This document shows, piece by piece, positions 5,048 through 36,555 of a DNA stretch of 36,555 nt (the first letter of the stretch is position 1; the number at the start of each line of letters is the position of its first letter). Both the position numbers and the translations under genes were made by a program. Source of the DNA: a virus; the IMG/VR virus record IMGVR_UViG_3300009550_000031, positions 1 to 36,555 of that record; one strand, written 5' to 3'. The notes beneath the pieces are model-generated. The model searched no databases and was not told the origin of the DNA. It saw only the letters and a list, made by a program, of their open reading frames with translations.

Positions 5048-5917
5048 ATGGCACAGCCTAAAAAAGTAAATTATCTTAATAATAAAGATATTCTTAAAGA
5101 AATTGACAAAAGTAAAATGTCATATTGCTATATTTCAGATGATATGTATGCAAAATATGATATTATTCTACAGGATGTCAAAAAAATAAACAGAAACAGT
5201 ATTAAATTAGCAAGAGAAAATCGTGCTTCTATAATGCAGTCAATTGGTTATCAAGCCGCAATGGCAGATCATGACCCAAAAGATTACAAAAATAAACCCA
5301 AGCAGAAAGAGTTTGCTGTGGACCCTAAAAGTATTCCACAAGAAGAGTTAGTTTTTCGTGTAATGACTATGGAACACATTCCTGATGAACCAGGAAGGAA
5401 AAGGATTCCTAAAAACGAAGCAGAAACTAAGGCTAAAGTAAACTTTCCGTCCTTTAAGCATTATGCTTATGTAAATGGTGAGGTAACAGAAGTTGCTAGA
5501 AGTCATTGGCAGGGCAGTTTAAGTAATGGTCACTTTAGTGTAGATCACGGAAAGATCACTAACAAGTTAGGAACAATGTTTTTAAAACTTGTAGAGAGGT
5601 ATTCTCATAGAGCAAACTGGAGAGGTTATACTTATGTAGATGAAATGCGTGGACAAGCATTAGTACAATTAAGTCAAATTGGTCTTCAATTCAATGAAGC
5701 AAAATCAGATAATCCATTTGCATATTATACGGCCGCAGTTAATAATAGTTTTACTAGAATTTTAAATTTAGAAAAACGTAACCAAATGATTAGAGATGAC
5801 ATATTAATAGAACAAGGTCATTTACCTAGTTATGGTAGACAAATTAAACACGAAGAAGAAATGAGGCAACTTCGTGAAGCGGCTGAAAATGATGCCCAAA
5901 GTGATATTAACAATTAA
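5048..5917 (+). CDS. 55: Late-transcription sigma factor gp55
   Basis: T4-type late sigma factor, which directs host RNA polymerase to TATAAATA-like late promoters. The N-terminus carries a YLNNKDIL segment like the YVNNKELL of T4 gp55, and residues about 190-245 match the core: RGYTYVDEMRGQAL, then FNEAKSDNPFAYYTAAVNNSF and a basic RILNLEKRNQ helix. At 289 residues it is about 100 longer than T4 gp55 (185); the extra length is a Lys/Pro-rich insert between the N-terminal segment and the core (about residues 70-180). The ATG follows GAGGAGAG with good spacing. The gene is first in an early-type operon with gp47 and gp46, behind a consensus sigma70 promoter, and the elements it should recognise occur before most other units in the window. 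Confidence 0.87.
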   Translation: MAQPKKVNYLNNKDILKEIDKSKMSYCYISDDMYAKYDIILQDVKKINRNSIKLARENRASIMQSIGYQAAMADHDPKDYKNKPKQKEFAVDPKSIPQEELVFRVMTMEHIPDEPGRKRIPKNEAETKAKVNFPSFKHYAYVNGEVTEVARSHWQGSLSNGHFSVDHGKITNKLGTMFLKLVERYSHRANWRGYTYVDEMRGQALVQLSQIGLQFNEAKSDNPFAYYTAAVNNSFTRILNLEKRNQMIRDDILIEQGHLPSYGRQIKHEEEMRQLREAAENDAQSDINN

Positions 5918-19712: not shown

Positions 19713-20852
19713 ATGGCGAACTTATTTGAAAGCAACTGGTCAGCAACTAAAGATGCTTTGCTTGAAGGACTTTCTGGAAACAGAAAATCTTCTTTAGATG
19801 TCGTCCTCGAAAACACAAAGAGACATTTGTCAGAGGCCGCAACAGCAGGTGCCACAGGTGCTGGTTCAGTAGCAACATTAAACAAGGTTATGTTACCTTT
19901 GATTAGAAGGGTTATGCCTTCCGTAATCGCAAACGAACTAGTTGGTGTACAACCAATGACTGGCCCAGTAGGGCAAATCCATACACTAAGAGTCAGATAT
20001 TCTGAAACTGGTGGTGGAGCAACAGCAGGTGATGAGGCATTAAGTCCTTTCAAACTTGCTTCTACATATGCTGGATCTCCAGACGCTACAGCGGCGGCTG
20101 AGGGTAACCCAGGTAGAAAAATGAGCATTCAAATCTTAAAAGAAACTGTTGAAGCGAAAACCAGAAGGTTATCAGCAAGATGGACTTTTGAGGCGGCTCA
20201 AGATGCAGAATCTATGCACGGCGTTGACGTTGAAGCAGAAATTATGCAAGCCTTAGCACAAGAGATCGTAGTTGAAATCGACCAAGAAATTATCGGTTCA
20301 CTAAGAACTCTAGCAGGGTCTGGAACAGCTCTAGACTTTAGTTCAGTAACTGGCACACAAACTTACGTTGGTGACAGACATGCTGTAATGGCTATTGAGA
20401 TCAACAGAGCGGCTAACAGAATCGCGGCTAGAACAAGACGTGGTGCTGGTAACTATATCGTTGTATCTCCAGAAGCATTGACAATCTTACAAAGTGCGTC
20501 AACTTCAACATTCGCAAGAACAACAGAAGGTTCATTTGAAGCACCTACAAACACTAAGTTTGTTGGAACTTTAAACGGAACAATCAAAGTATTCGTAGAT
20601 AACTATGCGGCTGACGGTACTAAAGTACTAGTTGGTTACAAAGGATCAAGCGAAACTGATGCTCCAGCATTCTATTGTCCTTATATCCCACTAATGAGCA
20701 CAGGCCCAGTAATGGACCCAAGCACATTTGAACCAGTAGTGTCATTTATGACAAGATATGGTTATAAAGAACTTACTAACACAGCAAGTTCATTGGGTAA
20801 CGCGGCAGACTACGTTGATGCAATAACATTGTCCAACGTTGCATTCCAGTAA
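19713..20852 (+). CDS. 23: Major capsid protein gp23
   Basis: HK97-fold capsid protein. The match to the T4 group is clear along the length: VMLPLIRRVMPSVIANELVGVQPM (about 50-75), the KTRRLSARWTFEAAQDAESMHG region, a central R-x-x-G-A-G-N-Y-I-V-V-S-P segment, and a C-terminal FMTRYGYKELTNT. Length 379 is shorter than T4 gp23 (521), chiefly from loss of the insertion domain and a shorter N-terminal delta region. A gp21-type cleavage site is visible at L39-S40-E41|A42. Preceded by TAGGAG and followed by a strong terminator. Confidence 0.96.
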   Translation: MANLFESNWSATKDALLEGLSGNRKSSLDVVLENTKRHLSEAATAGATGAGSVATLNKVMLPLIRRVMPSVIANELVGVQPMTGPVGQIHTLRVRYSETGGGATAGDEALSPFKLASTYAGSPDATAAAEGNPGRKMSIQILKETVEAKTRRLSARWTFEAAQDAESMHGVDVEAEIMQALAQEIVVEIDQEIIGSLRTLAGSGTALDFSSVTGTQTYVGDRHAVMAIEINRAANRIAARTRRGAGNYIVVSPEALTILQSASTSTFARTTEGSFEAPTNTKFVGTLNGTIKVFVDNYAADGTKVLVGYKGSSETDAPAFYCPYIPLMSTGPVMDPSTFEPVVSFMTRYGYKELTNTASSLGNAADYVDAITLSNVAFQ

Positions 20853-29712: not shown

Positions 29713-32700
29713 ATGGCAACAGCAATTCAAAGGAGACGAGGTACCACTACGCAACATAACAGTTTTACTGGTTTAGCGGGTGAGATCACGATCGATACAA
29801 CAAAAAATACGGTCGTAGTACATGACGGCTCGACAGCAGGTGGTATCCCACTAGCGAAATCTTCAGAAGTATCAGCATTAGGTGGCGCAGATATTACAGC
29901 CGTAGTAGCAGGTAATGGTTTAAGTGGTGGATCAACATCAGGCGATGCAACTATTAATTTAGATTTAAATGAACTAAGTGCGGCCGCAGTAGCCGTAGAT
30001 GCAGACAGCATACCAATTATAGATGCAAGTGATAATAGTTCAAAGAAAGAAAGTATTGCTGATTTAGTTTCAGGAATGGCAGGAACTAATTTAACTGCAA
30101 GTTCAGGCACATTAGGAATGGCAGATACTGTAATCAGAGGTAAAATCTCAGTTACTGATGCAGGTGGAGATGGTTCATTAGCATATAACAACAGTACAGG
30201 TGTTATCACATATACAGGTCCTAGTGCGGCAGAAGTAAGAGCACATATTAGTGGTGGAACTGGTGTAACAGTAAGTTCAGGTGAAATTAGTATTGGCCAG
30301 GCAGTTGCAACAACAAGTGATGTAACATTTGCAGACTTAATTGTAAGTGGAAACTTAACAGTTAGCGGAACTCAAACAACAGTTAATACAGAAACTCTTA
30401 CTGTAGATGATAATTTAATAGTACTCAACAATAACGAATCAGGAACCCCCTCAGAAGATGCTGGTATCGAAATTGAAAGAGGGACATCAACAAACGTAAA
30501 ATTACAATTTAAAGAAAGTACAGATAGATGGCAGTTTACAAATGACGGGTCAACATATTTCAGTTTACCAACAAGTACAGCCGATATAGCAGAAAATACA
30601 AATCTTTATTATACAAACGCAAGAGCAGATGCTAGAATTACAGCGGCACTTATTGATGAAGATAATATGGCTTCGGATAGTGCTACTAGACTACCATCAC
30701 AGCAATCAGTTAAAGCATATGTTGATGCCCAAGTTGCAACAAAAGACAATACAGATGAGATAACAGAGGGTTCAACTAATTTATACTTTACAAACGCAAG
30801 AGCAGATGCCAGAATTGCAAACGCAATTAAAGATGAAGACAACATGGCATCAGATAGTGCAACTCATGTTCCCTCACAACAATCTGTTAAGGCCTTTGTA
30901 GCGGCTCAGATAGCAACTAAAGATAATACAGATGAAATGACAGAAGGTTCAACTAACCTTTACTTTACAAATGCTAGAGCCAGAAGTGCAATTAGTGTAA
31001 GTGGTGACTTAGCATACAACAGTAGTACTGGTGTAATTAGTTTCACTAATGATGCTGGTGACATAGAAGGTGTTACAGCAGGATCAGGTTTAAGTGGAGG
31101 TGGTTCAAGTGGAACTGTAACAGTAGCAGTAAATCATGAAGCATTCTCAGGTAACTTAATACCAAGTTCAAACAACACATACCAATTAGGTAGTGCTTCT
31201 CATGTTTGGAAAGATGTATTTGTTGGACCAGGATCATTATATGTTAACGGACAACAAGTATTATCTGATAATTCAGGAACTATCCAAGTTAGTGCTGATA
31301 CAAACCAAAACATTAGTATTTTAACTACAGGAACTGGTGACATTGAATTAACATCAGGTGGTGATATACAACTTAAAACAGACGTTGTAATATCAGCAGA
31401 CAAAACAATCACATCAAGTGGTGGTGTTAAGTATGCTTCAAATATTAACATGAATAGTAACAACATTAATAATGTTGATAATCCGGTATCGGCTCAAGAT
31501 GCGGCTACTAAGGCATACGTTGATGCCCAAGTTGCAACAAAAGACAATACAGATGAGATAACAGAAGGTTCAAGTAACTTATATTTTACAAACGAAAGAG
31601 CTCAAGATGCAGTTGGTAGTATAATTGCTGGTAGTGGTAATGTTGGTGTTGCTTATGATGACGCGGCAGGAACTATTACAATTAGTGAAAGTTTAACAAC
31701 TACAGATATTACAGAAGGCGATAATCAATACTTTACAAATGCTAGAGCCCAATCGGCTATTACTGTTACTGATGCAGGTGGAGATGGTTCATTAGGATAT
31801 AGTGGCGGAACAATTACTTATACAGGTCCTAGTGCGGCAGAAGTAAGAGCCCACCTAAGTGCAGGTTCAGGTATGAGTTACAGTGGTGGTGCTTTTGCAG
31901 TAGATTCTACTGTAGTAAGGACTACAGGTGCTCAAACAGTAGCAGGTGCTAAAACATTTAGTAACGATGCAATTTTTAACGGTAACTTAACTGTTAATGG
32001 TACACAGACTATTGTTAATACAGAAACATTAACTGTAGATGACAATATTATTGTACTTAATAACAATGCATCAGGTACACCAAGTGAAAATGCTGGGTTC
32101 CAAGTAAATAGAGGTTCATCCTCTGACGTGCTACTTAGATGGAACGAAGGTTCTGATATTTGGGAATTTACCACAGATGGTAGTACCTACTTTACAATAG
32201 CGGCAAGTACAAGTGATTTAGCAGAAGGTACAAATTTATACTATACAAACGCAAGAGCAGATGCAAGAGCAGATGCCAGGATTGCGGCGGCAGATACAGA
32301 TAGTTTAAGTGAAGGTTCAAGTAACTTATACTACACAAATGCTAGAGCAGATGCCAGAATAGCGGCGGCTGACACAGGTGATTTAAGTGAAGGTTCAAAT
32401 CTTTACTATACAAATGCTAGAGCAGATGCCAGAGTAGCATTAGCAACAGGTTCTAACCTAAACTTAGGAAGTAAAGATACAGATGATTTAAGTGAAGGTT
32501 CAAGTAATCTTTATCATACATCAGCAAGAGCGGATGCTAGATTTGATGTTAAGATTGCGGCGGCTGACACTGATGATTTAAGTGAAGGTTCAAATAACTT
32601 ATATTTCACAAACGCAAGGGTTGATTCAAGACTTACTGGTGGAACAGGTATTACTTATTCAAGTGGTACTATTAGTGTTACAGCAGGAAGTATTGGTGCA

Positions 32701-33645
32701 ACACAATTGTCAGGTTCAGGTGTTACTGCAGGTGTATATGGTGATGCAGATTCTGTTTCCCAAATTACAGTAGATACAGATGGACGTATTACTAGTGCGG
32801 CAAACGTTGATATTGCTATATCCAGTGGTGCTGTTAGTGGCTTGGCCGCATCAGCAACAACAGATACAACAAGTGCAAGTAATATTAGTTCAGGTACTTT
32901 AAATAGTGCTAGACTTCCTGACTTAGCAGTTGCAGACTTTGGTGGAGCGGCTATACAAACTGGTTCAGAATCATTTAGTGATAGTGATTCAGTACTTATG
33001 ACAGCGGCGGCAGTTCAAGATAAAATTACAAGTTATGGTTACACAACTACAACAGGTGATATTACAGCAGTTGTGGCAGGTAATGGACTAACTGGTGGTG
33101 CTTCAAGTGGTAGTGCAACAGTGGCAGTTGGTGCAGGTACATACATTATTGCCAACGCAGACGATATTGCAGTTGACGCCACATCGGCCAATACAGCAAG
33201 TAAAGTTGTAGCAAGAGATGGATCAGGTAACTTTAGTGCAGGAACAATTACTGCAACGGCAACCAACGCCCAATATGCGGATTTGGCTGAGATATATAAA
33301 GCAGATGGTGATATAGAGCCAGGAAGTGTTGTTATGTTTGGTGGTGAACACGAAATTACAGCATGTGATGTTGAAGGACATCATGCAGTAGCAGGTGTTA
33401 TATCAACAGATCCAGCACACTTAATGAATGCAGAAGCAGAAGGTTTACCAGTAGCATTAGCAGGAAGAGTACCATGTAAAGTGGTAGGTCCAGTTGCTAA
33501 AGGTGACCTAATGGTTAGTTCAGCAGTAAGTGGTCATGCTAAAGCAGATAACGATGCACCAGCAGGAAGAATAATTGGTAAAGCAATTGAAGCCAAAGAC
33601 GGTGAAGGCGAAGGTGTTATAGAAGTTTTAGTAAACATGATGTAA
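29713..33645 (+). CDS. Long tail fibre 2 with NLYYTNARADAR repeats
   Basis: A 1310-residue paralogue of fibre 1. N-terminus AIQRRRGTTTQHNSFTGL (a conserved marine fibre start), then a shaft with ten or so units of the form EGS-NLY-TNARADARI (near 30600, 30780, 30950, 31570, 31730, 32230, 32320, 32400, 32500 and 32590), two GGDGSL-Y-TYTGPSAAEVRAH units (near 30150 and 31770) and two TETLTVDDN-IVLNNN modules (near 30390 and 32020). The C-terminal 125 residues (NAQYADLAEIYKADGD, STDPAHLMN, AGRVPCKVVG) match fibre 1. The NLYYTNARADAR unit is probably a coiled or beta-helical shaft element whose copy number sets length. Ends before a strong terminator. Confidence 0.85.
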   Translation: MATAIQRRRGTTTQHNSFTGLAGEITIDTTKNTVVVHDGSTAGGIPLAKSSEVSALGGADITAVVAGNGLSGGSTSGDATINLDLNELSAAAVAVDADSIPIIDASDNSSKKESIADLVSGMAGTNLTASSGTLGMADTVIRGKISVTDAGGDGSLAYNNSTGVITYTGPSAAEVRAHISGGTGVTVSSGEISIGQAVATTSDVTFADLIVSGNLTVSGTQTTVNTETLTVDDNLIVLNNNESGTPSEDAGIEIERGTSTNVKLQFKESTDRWQFTNDGSTYFSLPTSTADIAENTNLYYTNARADARITAALIDEDNMASDSATRLPSQQSVKAYVDAQVATKDNTDEITEGSTNLYFTNARADARIANAIKDEDNMASDSATHVPSQQSVKAFVAAQIATKDNTDEMTEGSTNLYFTNARARSAISVSGDLAYNSSTGVISFTNDAGDIEGVTAGSGLSGGGSSGTVTVAVNHEAFSGNLIPSSNNTYQLGSASHVWKDVFVGPGSLYVNGQQVLSDNSGTIQVSADTNQNISILTTGTGDIELTSGGDIQLKTDVVISADKTITSSGGVKYASNINMNSNNINNVDNPVSAQDAATKAYVDAQVATKDNTDEITEGSSNLYFTNERAQDAVGSIIAGSGNVGVAYDDAAGTITISESLTTTDITEGDNQYFTNARAQSAITVTDAGGDGSLGYSGGTITYTGPSAAEVRAHLSAGSGMSYSGGAFAVDSTVVRTTGAQTVAGAKTFSNDAIFNGNLTVNGTQTIVNTETLTVDDNIIVLNNNASGTPSENAGFQVNRGSSSDVLLRWNEGSDIWEFTTDGSTYFTIAASTSDLAEGTNLYYTNARADARADARIAAADTDSLSEGSSNLYYTNARADARIAAADTGDLSEGSNLYYTNARADARVALATGSNLNLGSKDTDDLSEGSSNLYHTSARADARFDVKIAAADTDDLSEGSNNLYFTNARVDSRLTGGTGITYSSGTISVTAGSIGATQLSGSGVTAGVYGDADSVSQITVDTDGRITSAANVDIAISSGAVSGLAASATTDTTSASNISSGTLNSARLPDLAVADFGGAAIQTGSESFSDSDSVLMTAAAVQDKITSYGYTTTTGDITAVVAGNGLTGGASSGSATVAVGAGTYIIANADDIAVDATSANTASKVVARDGSGNFSAGTITATATNAQYADLAEIYKADGDIEPGSVVMFGGEHEITACDVEGHHAVAGVISTDPAHLMNAEAEGLPVALAGRVPCKVVGPVAKGDLMVSSAVSGHAKADNDAPAGRIIGKAIEAKDGEGEGVIEVLVNMM

Positions 33646-33666: not shown

Positions 33667-33694
33667 AAGGAGCATTTAGTTGCTCCTTTTTTTT
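33667..33694 (+). terminator. Intrinsic terminator after fibre 2
   Basis: AAGGAGCA (33667-33674), loop TTTAGT, TGCTCCTT (33681-33688) and a long T run. It separates the fibre unit from the membrane-protein/curli unit. Confidence 0.9.
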
Positions 33695-33720: not shown

Positions 33721-33728
33721 GATAAATA
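33721..33728 (+). promoter_or_regulatory. Late promoter of the membrane-protein/curli operon
   Basis: GATAAATA followed by CGAGTG, 41 bases before the ATG at 33769. The only promoter-like element between the fibre 2 terminator and the curli-type genes, so all five genes downstream are probably one late transcript. Confidence 0.6.
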
Positions 33729-33768: not shown

Positions 33769-34064
33769 ATGGAAGATATCTTTTTATTAATTGCAGAGGT
33801 AGGTGCCCCATCGCCGGTAGTCTGGTCATGGGATTTTTTATCTTTTTAGTAATCAAACAAATTATGGAAGGTATCGTTGACCAAGTTAAAACACTTACAG
33901 GATTTTGCAAAATGTTAGAAGCAAGAGCAAGTACAATGAGTAATGAAATGATGAAAATTGATCTGCTTGTAAGTAGTGCCTTAGAACTTAGACCTGATAT
34001 TGAAAGAATTGCTCGTGCAGAAAACTTTGTTGAAGATGGCAAAGTGGATGCGAGGAGAGACTAA
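33769..34064 (+). CDS. Small membrane protein A, frameshifted (holin-like topology)
   Basis: The ATG at 33769 opens MEDIFLLIAEVGAP, then the frame runs into a stop after SPVVWSWDFLSF. The frame one base back continues as IAGSLVMGFFIFLVIKQ and runs to 34064. Joined at the CCCC near 33799-33802 the product is 98 residues: a short periplasmic N-terminus, one membrane segment (about 12-32) and a charged helical tail. The joined form aligns along its whole length with the next gene, which supports the junction. Cause: a missing C in a homopolymer (real mutation or sequencing error), less likely programmed slippage. Without the shift only an internal ATG at 33828 could be used. The topology recalls small phage holin/UviB-like proteins; the function is unproven. 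Confidence 0.6.
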
Positions 34065-34357
34065 TGGATGTAGCAGGATTAATTAACGACTACGGATTTC
34101 CTGTAGTTATGGCAGTTGGCTTAGGCTATTTCATTTATTTTATTTGGAAGTTTATAGGTGAGCATATAGATCCTGCATTAGCAGATATGCATGTTGCTCT
34201 TATAAGAGTTATAGATAAAACTCGTATGCTTGATCAAGATATGATCCGTTTACAACAAAAAGTAAATGTTGTATTAGAATACAAAGCAACACAGAAGATT
34301 ATAGAAGATGCCAAGCAAAAAGAGGCATTAGAAAAAATTGAGGGGAAGAAAAAATGA
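34064..34357 (+). CDS. Small membrane protein B (holin-like topology)
   Basis: A 97-residue paralogue of the preceding protein: MDVAGLINDYGFPVVMAVGLGYFIYFIWKF, with a single membrane segment at about residues 13-32, then a charged amphipathic helix (DKTRMLDQDMIRLQQKVNVVLEYK) and a Lys/Glu-rich tail. The 'I-x-x-x-G-x-P' stretch before the membrane segment is shared with protein A. The start overlaps the stop of protein A (TAATG), and csgF starts a few bases before its own stop, so it belongs to the curli-type operon. Possible roles: a holin-like or inner-membrane helper. No enzymatic motif is seen. Confidence 0.68.
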   Translation: MDVAGLINDYGFPVVMAVGLGYFIYFIWKFIGEHIDPALADMHVALIRVIDKTRMLDQDMIRLQQKVNVVLEYKATQKIIEDAKQKEALEKIEGKKK

Positions 34358-34881
34358 ATAAAGCAAAAGTAAATAACAGAATTTCAAATGCAGTTATTGG
34401 TACACTTTTTTTACTTCTTGGTGTATTATTTGTTGCAGAATTAAGTGCAGACGAAATAAAATTTAAATTTAAGAATCCTAGTTTTAGCGGTCAGGGAACT
34501 GGTGCTCATTATTTAACTATTGAGAACCAAGAAAAGTCACGTAAGGATAAAATTAAAGCAGATATAGAAGCGGCATTAAAGGCGGCTGAAAGAGCAGATG
34601 CTAACAGTACAATTAACAAATTTATTAGAAATTTGGAGAGTAGAATCTATTCACAAATTTCTAAAGGATTAGTTGACAGTATGTTTTGTGATCCAGCAAC
34701 TGTAATAAGTTGTACAGGATCAACAAGTGGAGCATTTGATATAGAGGGTAATACAGTTACTTATGAAGTAATTACAAACGCAGATGGTTTAGAAGTAATT
34801 AAACTTACGATTGTAGACCCAGATGGAACAATAACAGTAATAGAAATACCAATAGGTATAGGACAAATAGCAGGCGGATAA
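34354..34881 (+). CDS. csgF: CsgF-like curli assembly factor
   Basis: A 175-residue exported protein. A hydrophobic signal segment (about 11-32, ending near ELSA) precedes FKFKNPSFSGQGTGAHYL (37-53), which matches the mature N-terminus of E. coli CsgF (FQFRNPNFGGNP...), the segment that plugs into the CsgG channel. A helix with LESRIYSQISKGLVD (94-108) matches the CsgF QAIQSQILGGLL helix, and a C-terminal beta part follows. It is longer than E. coli CsgF (138), with an inserted charged helix at 60-85 and a Cys pair (C112, C120) that could form a disulfide. Its ATG overlaps the upstream stop (ATGA), and csgG starts 3 bases after its stop. Confidence 0.87.
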   Translation: MNKAKVNNRISNAVIGTLFLLLGVLFVAELSADEIKFKFKNPSFSGQGTGAHYLTIENQEKSRKDKIKADIEAALKAAERADANSTINKFIRNLESRIYSQISKGLVDSMFCDPATVISCTGSTSGAFDIEGNTVTYEVITNADGLEVIKLTIVDPDGTITVIEIPIGIGQIAGG

Positions 34882-34884
34882 AAC

Positions 34885-35922
34885 TTGACTAAAAATATTA
34901 TAATAGCATTGATAGGTGTTTTATATTTGAGTGGTTGTGCCAGTATCGCTATTCCGGGCGATGAGATGTGCCAAACTGACTTTCTTGAGTGTGTTGAAGA
35001 GCCTAAGAAAGTAGAACTACCCACGTATAGAAAATTACGATATTTGCCACCGGCAGAGGTTATGCCTGTGGTTGCTATATATACATTTGGAGATGGAACA
35101 GGGCAAAGAAAAAGCCAAGACGGAGTTGCTAGTTTTAGTACAGCAGTTACGCAAGACGCAAAAAGTTTATTAGTAGACGCTCTAAAGGCGGCAGGTTCAG
35201 GTAGTGATGCCAAAGGAACTTGGTTTAGGGTAGTTGAAAGAGGACTAGGTTTAGATAACTTAGTTAGAGAAAGACAAATAGTTCGAAGTACTCGATCTGA
35301 ACAGGCTAAACTGCAAGGATTAGAGGAGTTCCAAGAACTACAGCCAATGTTATTTGCTGGTATGATATTAGAAGGAGGCGTAATAGGATACGACACTAAT
35401 GTTGAAACAGGAGGTACAGGGGCAAGATATCTAGGTATTGGGACAACAAACCAATATCGAAGAGATAGCATAGTAATATCACTTCGTGCTGTGAGCACAC
35501 TTACAGGTGAAGTTATATTAAACGTGCAGACACAAAAGACTGTATTAAGTTCAGGTCAAGCAGGAGACGTATTTAGATTTGTAGATATGGATACTCGTTT
35601 GTTAGAACTTGAAAGCGGTATGACACAGAATGAAAGTGTAACATTTGCAGTCCGATCAGCGATCGAGGCCGCGGTGTTAGAACTTATTAAACAAGGTGAT
35701 GAAAGAGGATATTGGAAGATTGTTTACCCTGAGGATTGGGACTTACAAGTTGCAGAACAAGAACAAGCATACTGGATGAGTCTTAAAGAAGCAGGCAATC
35801 TTACTGACGAGGAAGATGAGGAGCAATTCTCTAAAGATCCAGATGACTTACCTTTATGGAAACGCATTCTATTAAAGAATGATAATAAAACCAATATTGG
35901 AGAAAATAATGAAGATAATTAA
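34885..35922 (+). CDS. csgG: CsgG-like outer-membrane curli export channel
   Basis: Lipoprotein that forms the outer-membrane channel exporting curli subunits. Starts at TTG (34885) with AGGCGG before it; this gives a clean lipoprotein signal with lipobox LSGC (C18). Family landmarks: FSTAV (84-88), LVRERQIVRSTR (126-137), the ILEGGVIGYDTNVETGGTGARYLGIG stretch (161-186), LTGEVIL (206-212), VFRFVD (229-234) and the C-terminal AIEAAV-ELIKQG-ERGYW. Length 345 against 277 in E. coli, owing mainly to an acidic C-terminal extension (about 280-345). The channel-constriction segment differs: E. coli F56 is kept as F84, but N55 corresponds to S83 and no Tyr matches Y51. Overlaps the curlin-like gene by 14 bases. 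Confidence 0.95.
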   Translation: MTKNIIIALIGVLYLSGCASIAIPGDEMCQTDFLECVEEPKKVELPTYRKLRYLPPAEVMPVVAIYTFGDGTGQRKSQDGVASFSTAVTQDAKSLLVDALKAAGSGSDAKGTWFRVVERGLGLDNLVRERQIVRSTRSEQAKLQGLEEFQELQPMLFAGMILEGGVIGYDTNVETGGTGARYLGIGTTNQYRRDSIVISLRAVSTLTGEVILNVQTQKTVLSSGQAGDVFRFVDMDTRLLELESGMTQNESVTFAVRSAIEAAVLELIKQGDERGYWKIVYPEDWDLQVAEQEQAYWMSLKEAGNLTDEEDEEQFSKDPDDLPLWKRILLKNDNKTNIGENNEDN

Positions 35923-36555
35923 AAACTTAGCGGTTGGTGTCTTCGCATTAATAGGACTTATGTCTAACCCAGTAATTGCAGATGATAACGAAGTGTTAAT
36001 AGAACAAGAAGGTGATAACCTTGTATTAACAATATTACAGGCAGGTACAGGTAATACTGTTTCTGGTAATAGTTCAGCATCAGCAGACTTAACACTTACT
36101 GGTAACAATATTATATTAGACCTAATACAAGACGGTGACAACAACGATTTCTTTGGTGCACTTGTTTTGGACGGAACAGGATCTTCTGTGTTAGATTTTT
36201 ATAATCTAGGTGACGGAAACATCTTTGATTTTGACGTAGGTGATAATAGTGCCGACGGTGCTGATATGCTTTCAAGCATTCAGGGTGACGGTAACATATT
36301 TGACATAGGTATAGGTGAAAGTGCCAGTGCAGAAAACTTAAACTTTGATTTAGTAATACTAGGTGACAGAAACGATTTTGACAGTAGTTTTACAAATAGT
36401 AAAGTTTGGGCGGCACAAGGCCAAGGTGAAAGTTGTGGAACAAACTGTACAGGTTCAAGTGCAATGGTAGGTATCTTAGTTGATGCAGACAACGTTGTAT
36501 GGAACTTTGATATTACAGGTGATGACAATGACTTTGCTACTTTGCAAAGTGGTAA
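35909..36555 (+). CDS. Curlin-repeat (CsgA/CsgB-like) secreted protein, partial
   Basis: Open from the ATG at 35909 to the window edge (215 codons, 3' end missing). It overlaps the end of csgG by 14 bases. The N-terminus is a signal peptide (MKIIKNLAVGVFALIGLMSNPVIA, cleavage likely before D25). The mature part is built of repeats with the curlin-like core Q-x-G-x-x-N: EQEGDN (32-37), LQAGTGN (43-49), IQDGDNN (73-79), LGDGN (100-104), IQGDGN (124-129), LGDRN (151-155) and TGDDN (near 203), spaced about 22-28 residues apart. It is rich in Gly, Asp and Asn and poor in Lys/Arg, like curlins. A Cys pair CGTNC lies near 176-180. Position after CsgF-CsgG makes it the likely export substrate. Confidence 0.75.
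   Translation, partial: MKIIKNLAVGVFALIGLMSNPVIADDNEVLIEQEGDNLVLTILQAGTGNTVSGNSSASADLTLTGNNIILDLIQDGDNNDFFGALVLDGTGSSVLDFYNLGDGNIFDFDVGDNSADGADMLSSIQGDGNIFDIGIGESASAENLNFDLVILGDRNDFDSSFTNSKVWAAQGQGESCGTNCTGSSAMVGILVDADNVVWNFDITGDDNDFATLQSG

Follow-up and report, generated by a model that had tools for sequence, protein, structure and literature searches.

The stretch of DNA analysed here, which we call the window, is a 36,555-bp IMG/VR virus record that carries a curlin-like repeat gene, cur1, at its right edge, with 215 codons inside. The gene is the last one inside the window of a curli-type secretion (csg) module that follows a tail-fibre-like gene. The relevant features are:

5048-5917, + strand: late-transcription sigma factor of the gp55 type (phrog_12791, E=1.3e-95)
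19713-20852, + strand: major capsid protein, the basis for assigning the phage to the PA5oct/GAP32/Rak2-type jumbo group
29713-33645, + strand: tail-fibre-like gene with an Mtd_N domain (PF18454, E=3.6e-14), directly upstream of the module
33669-33694, + strand: terminator-like hairpin (GGAGCA/TGCTCC followed by 8 T), visible in the sequence itself, after the tail-fibre gene
33721-33728, + strand: GATAAATA, a late-promoter motif of the T4 type, just after the hairpin and before the csg module
33769-34064, + strand: tm1, a small membrane/coiled-coil gene recognised from relatives, where it encodes 98 aa; no Pfam match for the relative's protein
34064-34357, + strand: tm2, a 97-aa small membrane/coiled-coil protein (phrog_18771; no Pfam match)
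34354-34881, + strand: csgF (PF10614, E=8.3e-12)
34885-35922, + strand: csgG, the outer-membrane curli secretion channel, with a lipoprotein signal (PF03783, E=1.4e-46)
35909-36555, + strand: cur1, a curlin-like repeat protein, assigned from PF07012, turn motifs, relatives and the solenoid model of the L036 relative

The hairpin at 33669-33694, which has counterparts upstream of the module in several relatives, is the upstream edge of the csg unit. Within the unit, the tm1 frame is broken in the window near 33805-33812 and intact in relatives; a real mutation and a sequencing error are indistinguishable as the cause. Homologues of tm2 are found in HTVC008M and Melnitz, and the gene is conserved in phage csg modules. 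The csgG profile matched the solved CsgG with E=1.3e-68.

As the initial annotation had described, the cur1 frame is open from the ATG at 35909 through the last position of the window and overlaps csgG, whose stop lies at 35922, by 14 nt. The open edge is simply the end of the contig. The ATG at 35909 is the conserved start, and an in-frame ATG upstream of it, at 35879, is not common to all cur1 relatives. A signal peptide, seen by eye in the sequence as before, precedes the mature protein (...ADDNEVLIEQEGDNLVLTILQAGTGN). Measured against composition-matched shuffles, the mature protein holds five GDxN motifs, for a shuffle mean of 0.38 (p about 2e-4). It also holds six GxxN-x-[hydrophobic] motifs, for a shuffle mean of 0.79, a count reached in 0 of 5000 shuffles. 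The latter lie at residues 46, 76, 101, 126, 152 and 204. The turn motifs are thus far above chance, but the figure of at least seven holds only if QEGDN at residue 33 is counted. Successive turns are 25-30 residues apart, with one double gap. Plain self-alignment autocorrelation of cur1 (best offsets 52, 11 and 25) fell below the 95% shuffle limit, and the evidence for repeats is therefore the turn motif, not long repeats.

The Pfam Curlin_rpt family (PF07012) gave one match on the cur1 protein, at 20.3 bits for a cut-off of 20.7, and in the genome search cur1 scored 24.1 bits, above the cut-off. This single canonical repeat follows the signal peptide and alone scores with PF07012; the later turns read GDxN. 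A search of the curlin profile against PDB sequences returned no meaningful match. The description of a curlin-like protein adjoining csgG is supported.

A scan of viral contigs gave cur1 relatives at 16 loci, 14 of them near and most of those complete, and the full length is known from these. The near relatives have cores of about 263-274 aa counted from the conserved start, and in the complete ones the C-terminus is VSIKQTD or a close variant; the relative chosen for modelling (L036) is 267 aa long and 92% identical to cur1. At L047 and L048, the cur1 protein is about 36% identical over only part of its length. Invariant alignment columns are mainly the glycines and asparagines of the turns. 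The CGTNC pair, noted at the outset, is real and all-or-none, every aligned sequence having both cysteines or neither. A second C-x3-C near the C-terminus is present in all complete near relatives, and the two pairs would fit two disulfides. The aspartate richness relative to CsgA is also borne out, with 15% Asp and a net charge of -39 over 243 aa in a full-length relative, against 6% and -6 over 131 aa in E. coli CsgA. Of the residues that form the Gln/Asn ladder of curlin strands, asparagine is kept, and glutamine stands at 3.3% against 8.4% in E. coli CsgA. Cur1 is under purifying selection (dN/dS 0.15-0.26), and CsgG is more conserved than cur1.

A beta-solenoid had been expected from AlphaFold-type modelling, and AlphaFold2, given a 13-sequence alignment for the L036 relative, returned one with two strands per turn (pLDDT 71, pTM 0.71). 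Paired strands run over residues 28 to 265, with low confidence at 165-193. We infer from this 92% identical relative that cur1 itself would form a stacked beta-solenoid. The model of cur2, the second curlin found in relatives, is also of solenoid type, with lower confidence (pLDDT 67.5). In VIA-align, parallel beta-helices matched over long stretches (Z up to 19.3 over 219 residues, rmsd 4.0), and this speaks for the general beta-helix fold only. Among the matches listed, the PDB fold search found general beta-helix proteins only, at Foldseek E > 1e-3, and no curli entry. The best viral neighbour is a phage protein named 'Curlin associated' (E=6.6e-5).

The window itself holds csgF-csgG-curlin, and the remaining module genes are known from near relatives. 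In these, two small membrane/coiled-coil proteins come first, followed by csgF, csgG and cur1. Next are a FecR-domain protein, which apparently has a signal peptide, and cur2; small genes that vary in make-up then lead to a cyclase of the CHASE2 adenylate/guanylate type. Cur2 of relatives scores 37.6 bits with PF07012, over the cut-off. Between loci whose cur1 proteins are 87-92% identical (L035, L037, L033 and L034), cur2 is only 44-45% identical, and such divergence beside near-identical neighbours suggests exchange or diversification. In some modules a flavoprotein with NAD- and FAD-binding domains lies between cur2 and the cyclase (L040:10380-11120 and L043:10812-11531). Several relatives (L015, L019, L022, L023, L007 and L013) have a possible 5' leader hairpin, CACACT ... 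AGTGTG, downstream of the promoter motif and ahead of the first start codon. The gene or genes preceding csgF in pelagiphage modules have been labelled histidine kinase (PMC9599517). In the lineage of the window, the genes ahead of csgF encode fewer than 100 aa and have no Pfam match, so that label may not fit the genes at this position here.

The carrier was placed from its structural proteins. Its capsid shares 68.5% identity with that of PA5oct-like Pseudomonas jumbo phages and 61-63% with GAP32, Phosso, 2.275.O and fENko-Kae01, against mostly 27-40% for the sampled T4-like phages and cyanophages outside the group; the portal agrees, at 44-53% identity to the listed group members. A relative on a 250,519-bp contig, with two tRNAs in the 238 kb read, is syntenic with the window from the baseplate genes to the curlin. 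Given these identities and this synteny, the window, a 36.5-kb fragment, very probably derives from a marine jumbo phage. The csg module is not universal in the capsid clade, as an 89-kb contig, itself a fragment, has a 91% identical capsid and no csgG.

In the phage collection, CsgG was found only in HTVC008M, in Melnitz phages and in one 1.5-kb record, and in no isolated jumbo phage of this kind. The short record, labelled 'Salmonella phage S.Kent 1-2-1' (OR851715.1), encodes a CsgG 41% identical to that of the window. In the open literature we found no report of curli or csgG in jumbo phages, which is weak evidence; curli go unmentioned in a paper on marine jumbo phages (PMC9123017). One T4-like marine contig of 180 kb, assigned to Bacteroidetes, does carry csgA, csgG and csgF (PMC7198788). 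A csg module in a jumbo lineage of the PA5oct/GAP32/Rak2 kind looks new. A bacterial origin was considered and set aside, as the genome contig scan gave 13 loci only, most on marine MAG contigs with the phage-like module order. The MAGs in which these modules sit (L058, L059 and L060-L070) bear the names Sphingobacteriales, Planctomycetaceae, Synechococcus, Pelagibacter and others. The contigs may be phage sequence that was mis-binned and so cannot root a tree.

The module itself is of a known kind, found before in phages that infect SAR11 and its relatives, and what looks new is the jumbo phage that carries it. A csgF-csgG-curlin-FecR-curlin2-cyclase module was published for podo- and myo-pelagiphages in 2022 (PMC9599517). 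The pelagiphage system of HTVC008M (gp014-gp019, PMC9599517) shares the gene order csgF, csgG, curlin, FecR-type gene, second curlin and adenylate cyclase, as well as small genes before csgF and GATAAATA upstream. It differs from the window lineage in its carrier, here a PA5oct/GAP32-type jumbo phage, in sequence (CsgG 44% and the curlin about 30% identical) and in the extra small genes, in some loci with the flavoprotein, that separate cur2 from the cyclase here. The Melnitz methylophage (MZ577097, L050, PMC9004378) likewise has csgF, csgG, two curlin repeat proteins, FecR and a cyclase, with the core order retained and a CsgG about 43% identical to that of the window. Its GenBank record annotates both curlin repeat proteins, whereas its paper describes csgA and csgB as lacking. 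The CsgG-adjacent curlins of both phages (annotated CsgB in HTVC008M) are, like cur1, Asp-rich, Gln-poor and Cys-containing, and they share its gene position and C-terminal IxQxD end. We have therefore dropped the idea that cur1 is a new curlin subtype. E. coli curli (csgBAC, csgDEFG) are alike in CsgG and CsgF homology and in curlin-type G-x-x-N turns; by comparison, no csgC, csgD or csgE was seen here, and the phage curlins are longer, Asp-rich, Gln-poor and contain cysteine. Phages of the PA5oct/GAP32/Rak2 kind resemble the window in capsid (61-68%) and portal (44-53%) for the listed members and in the ATAAATA motif reported for CBB and GAP32, but no CsgG homologue was found in their isolates in the phage collection.

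Late timing is suggested by the sequence ahead of the module. No 7-mer is more frequent upstream of genes in the window than ATAAATA. Of its 13 copies, 10 lie in intergenic sequence 10-150 nt ahead of a gene, a class that makes up 1.8% of strand-positions. Structural genes have the motif in front of them, the portal and tail-fibre genes among them, and so does the csg module. Across the lineage, the motif stands no more than 100 nt ahead of the first module gene at all 21 loci, and at 18 of 18 after removal of similar upstream regions, while shuffles gave a mean of 1.5 of 21. The longer GATAAATA lies about 95 nt upstream of the module in HTVC008M and 70 nt in Melnitz. In CBB and GAP32, ATAAATA is the predicted late-promoter motif (PMC5259590). 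Its conservation ahead of this lineage's csg modules looks new and suggests that the module is expressed late. Both the motif and the jumbo carrier lay beyond the view of the initial annotation.

Our preferred explanation, which we hold with a little better than even confidence, is that cur1, next to csgG, encodes the structural curlin of a type VIII secretion (curli) module with which a marine jumbo myophage makes late fibres. The module would be switched on late by the gp55-type sigma factor, and the host Sec system would carry CsgG, CsgF and the two curlins to the periplasm. CsgG with CsgF would form an outer-membrane pore, through which unfolded cur1 and cur2 would exit to fold as acidic beta-solenoids and stack into fibres on the infected cell. 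The late-promoter motif suggests that infected cells make these fibres shortly before bursting. Because fibre display would then coincide with virion assembly, the most likely benefit is that fibres hold sibling cells near the bursting cell, where progeny find hosts; sibling capture of this kind has been proposed (PMC7029224). The sequences show the gene content and order, the purifying selection and the promoter motif, whereas the solenoid fold, export, fibres and tethering are what we infer. In favour of the explanation are the CsgF, CsgG and curlin matches, the conserved gene order, the selection on cur1, the solenoid-type models, the late motif and the gp55-type sigma gene. Against it stand the single canonical Curlin_rpt, the replacement of much of the glutamine by aspartate, and a net charge near -39, which might impede stacking. 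A CsgE gate was not seen, the 89-kb contig lacks csgG, and cultures of Melnitz showed its authors no clumping (PMC9004378).

Alternatively, only the CsgG-CsgF pore might matter, with the curlins secondary, a role proposed for lysis timing (PMC9004378) or for the uptake of large molecules (PMC7029224). The stronger conservation of CsgG than of cur1 would fit. We nevertheless consider it unlikely, since two curlins are retained, cur1 is under purifying selection, and the Melnitz record annotates two curlins of its own; the late promoter is a poor fit for uptake, but does fit lysis timing. Curli fibres might instead cover the infected cell and keep other phages from superinfecting it, as has been proposed (PMC9599517). 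Display on the surface, with a second curlin that varies, would suit this, but exclusion should act early and the module has a late-promoter motif, and we give the proposal little more than one chance in eight. It is very improbable that the curlins end on the virion, for example as a hair-like tail decoration: the module directly follows the tail-fibre gene and has the structural-gene promoter type in common, and tail whiskers of unknown protein are described on the Rak2-like phage CBB (PMC5259590), but both curlins have signal peptides and the module also encodes an outer-membrane export pore, which indicate a destination outside the cell, whereas virions assemble in the cytoplasm. Late timing makes surface fibres at lysis more likely than early uptake or superinfection exclusion, and late display of curli-type fibres on infected cells is the most likely role.

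A more speculative proposal, to which we attach a low probability, is that the stacked GDxN turns form an aspartate ladder whose folding needs the calcium and magnesium of seawater, giving a distinct class of cation-triggered, disulfide-capped solenoid fibres that assemble only outside, at lysis. If true, phage curlins would stay unfolded inside the cell and become a host-tethering net outside it at lysis.

Phage curli modules have been reported as widespread in the ocean, without a tested function. Their occurrence in another phage lineage, the jumbo phages, where selection maintains cur1, is an argument that not only the pore but also the fibre protein has a use. The late-promoter motif, which also stands before the HTVC008M and Melnitz modules, offers a timing that separates fibres at lysis from the ideas of early uptake or exclusion.
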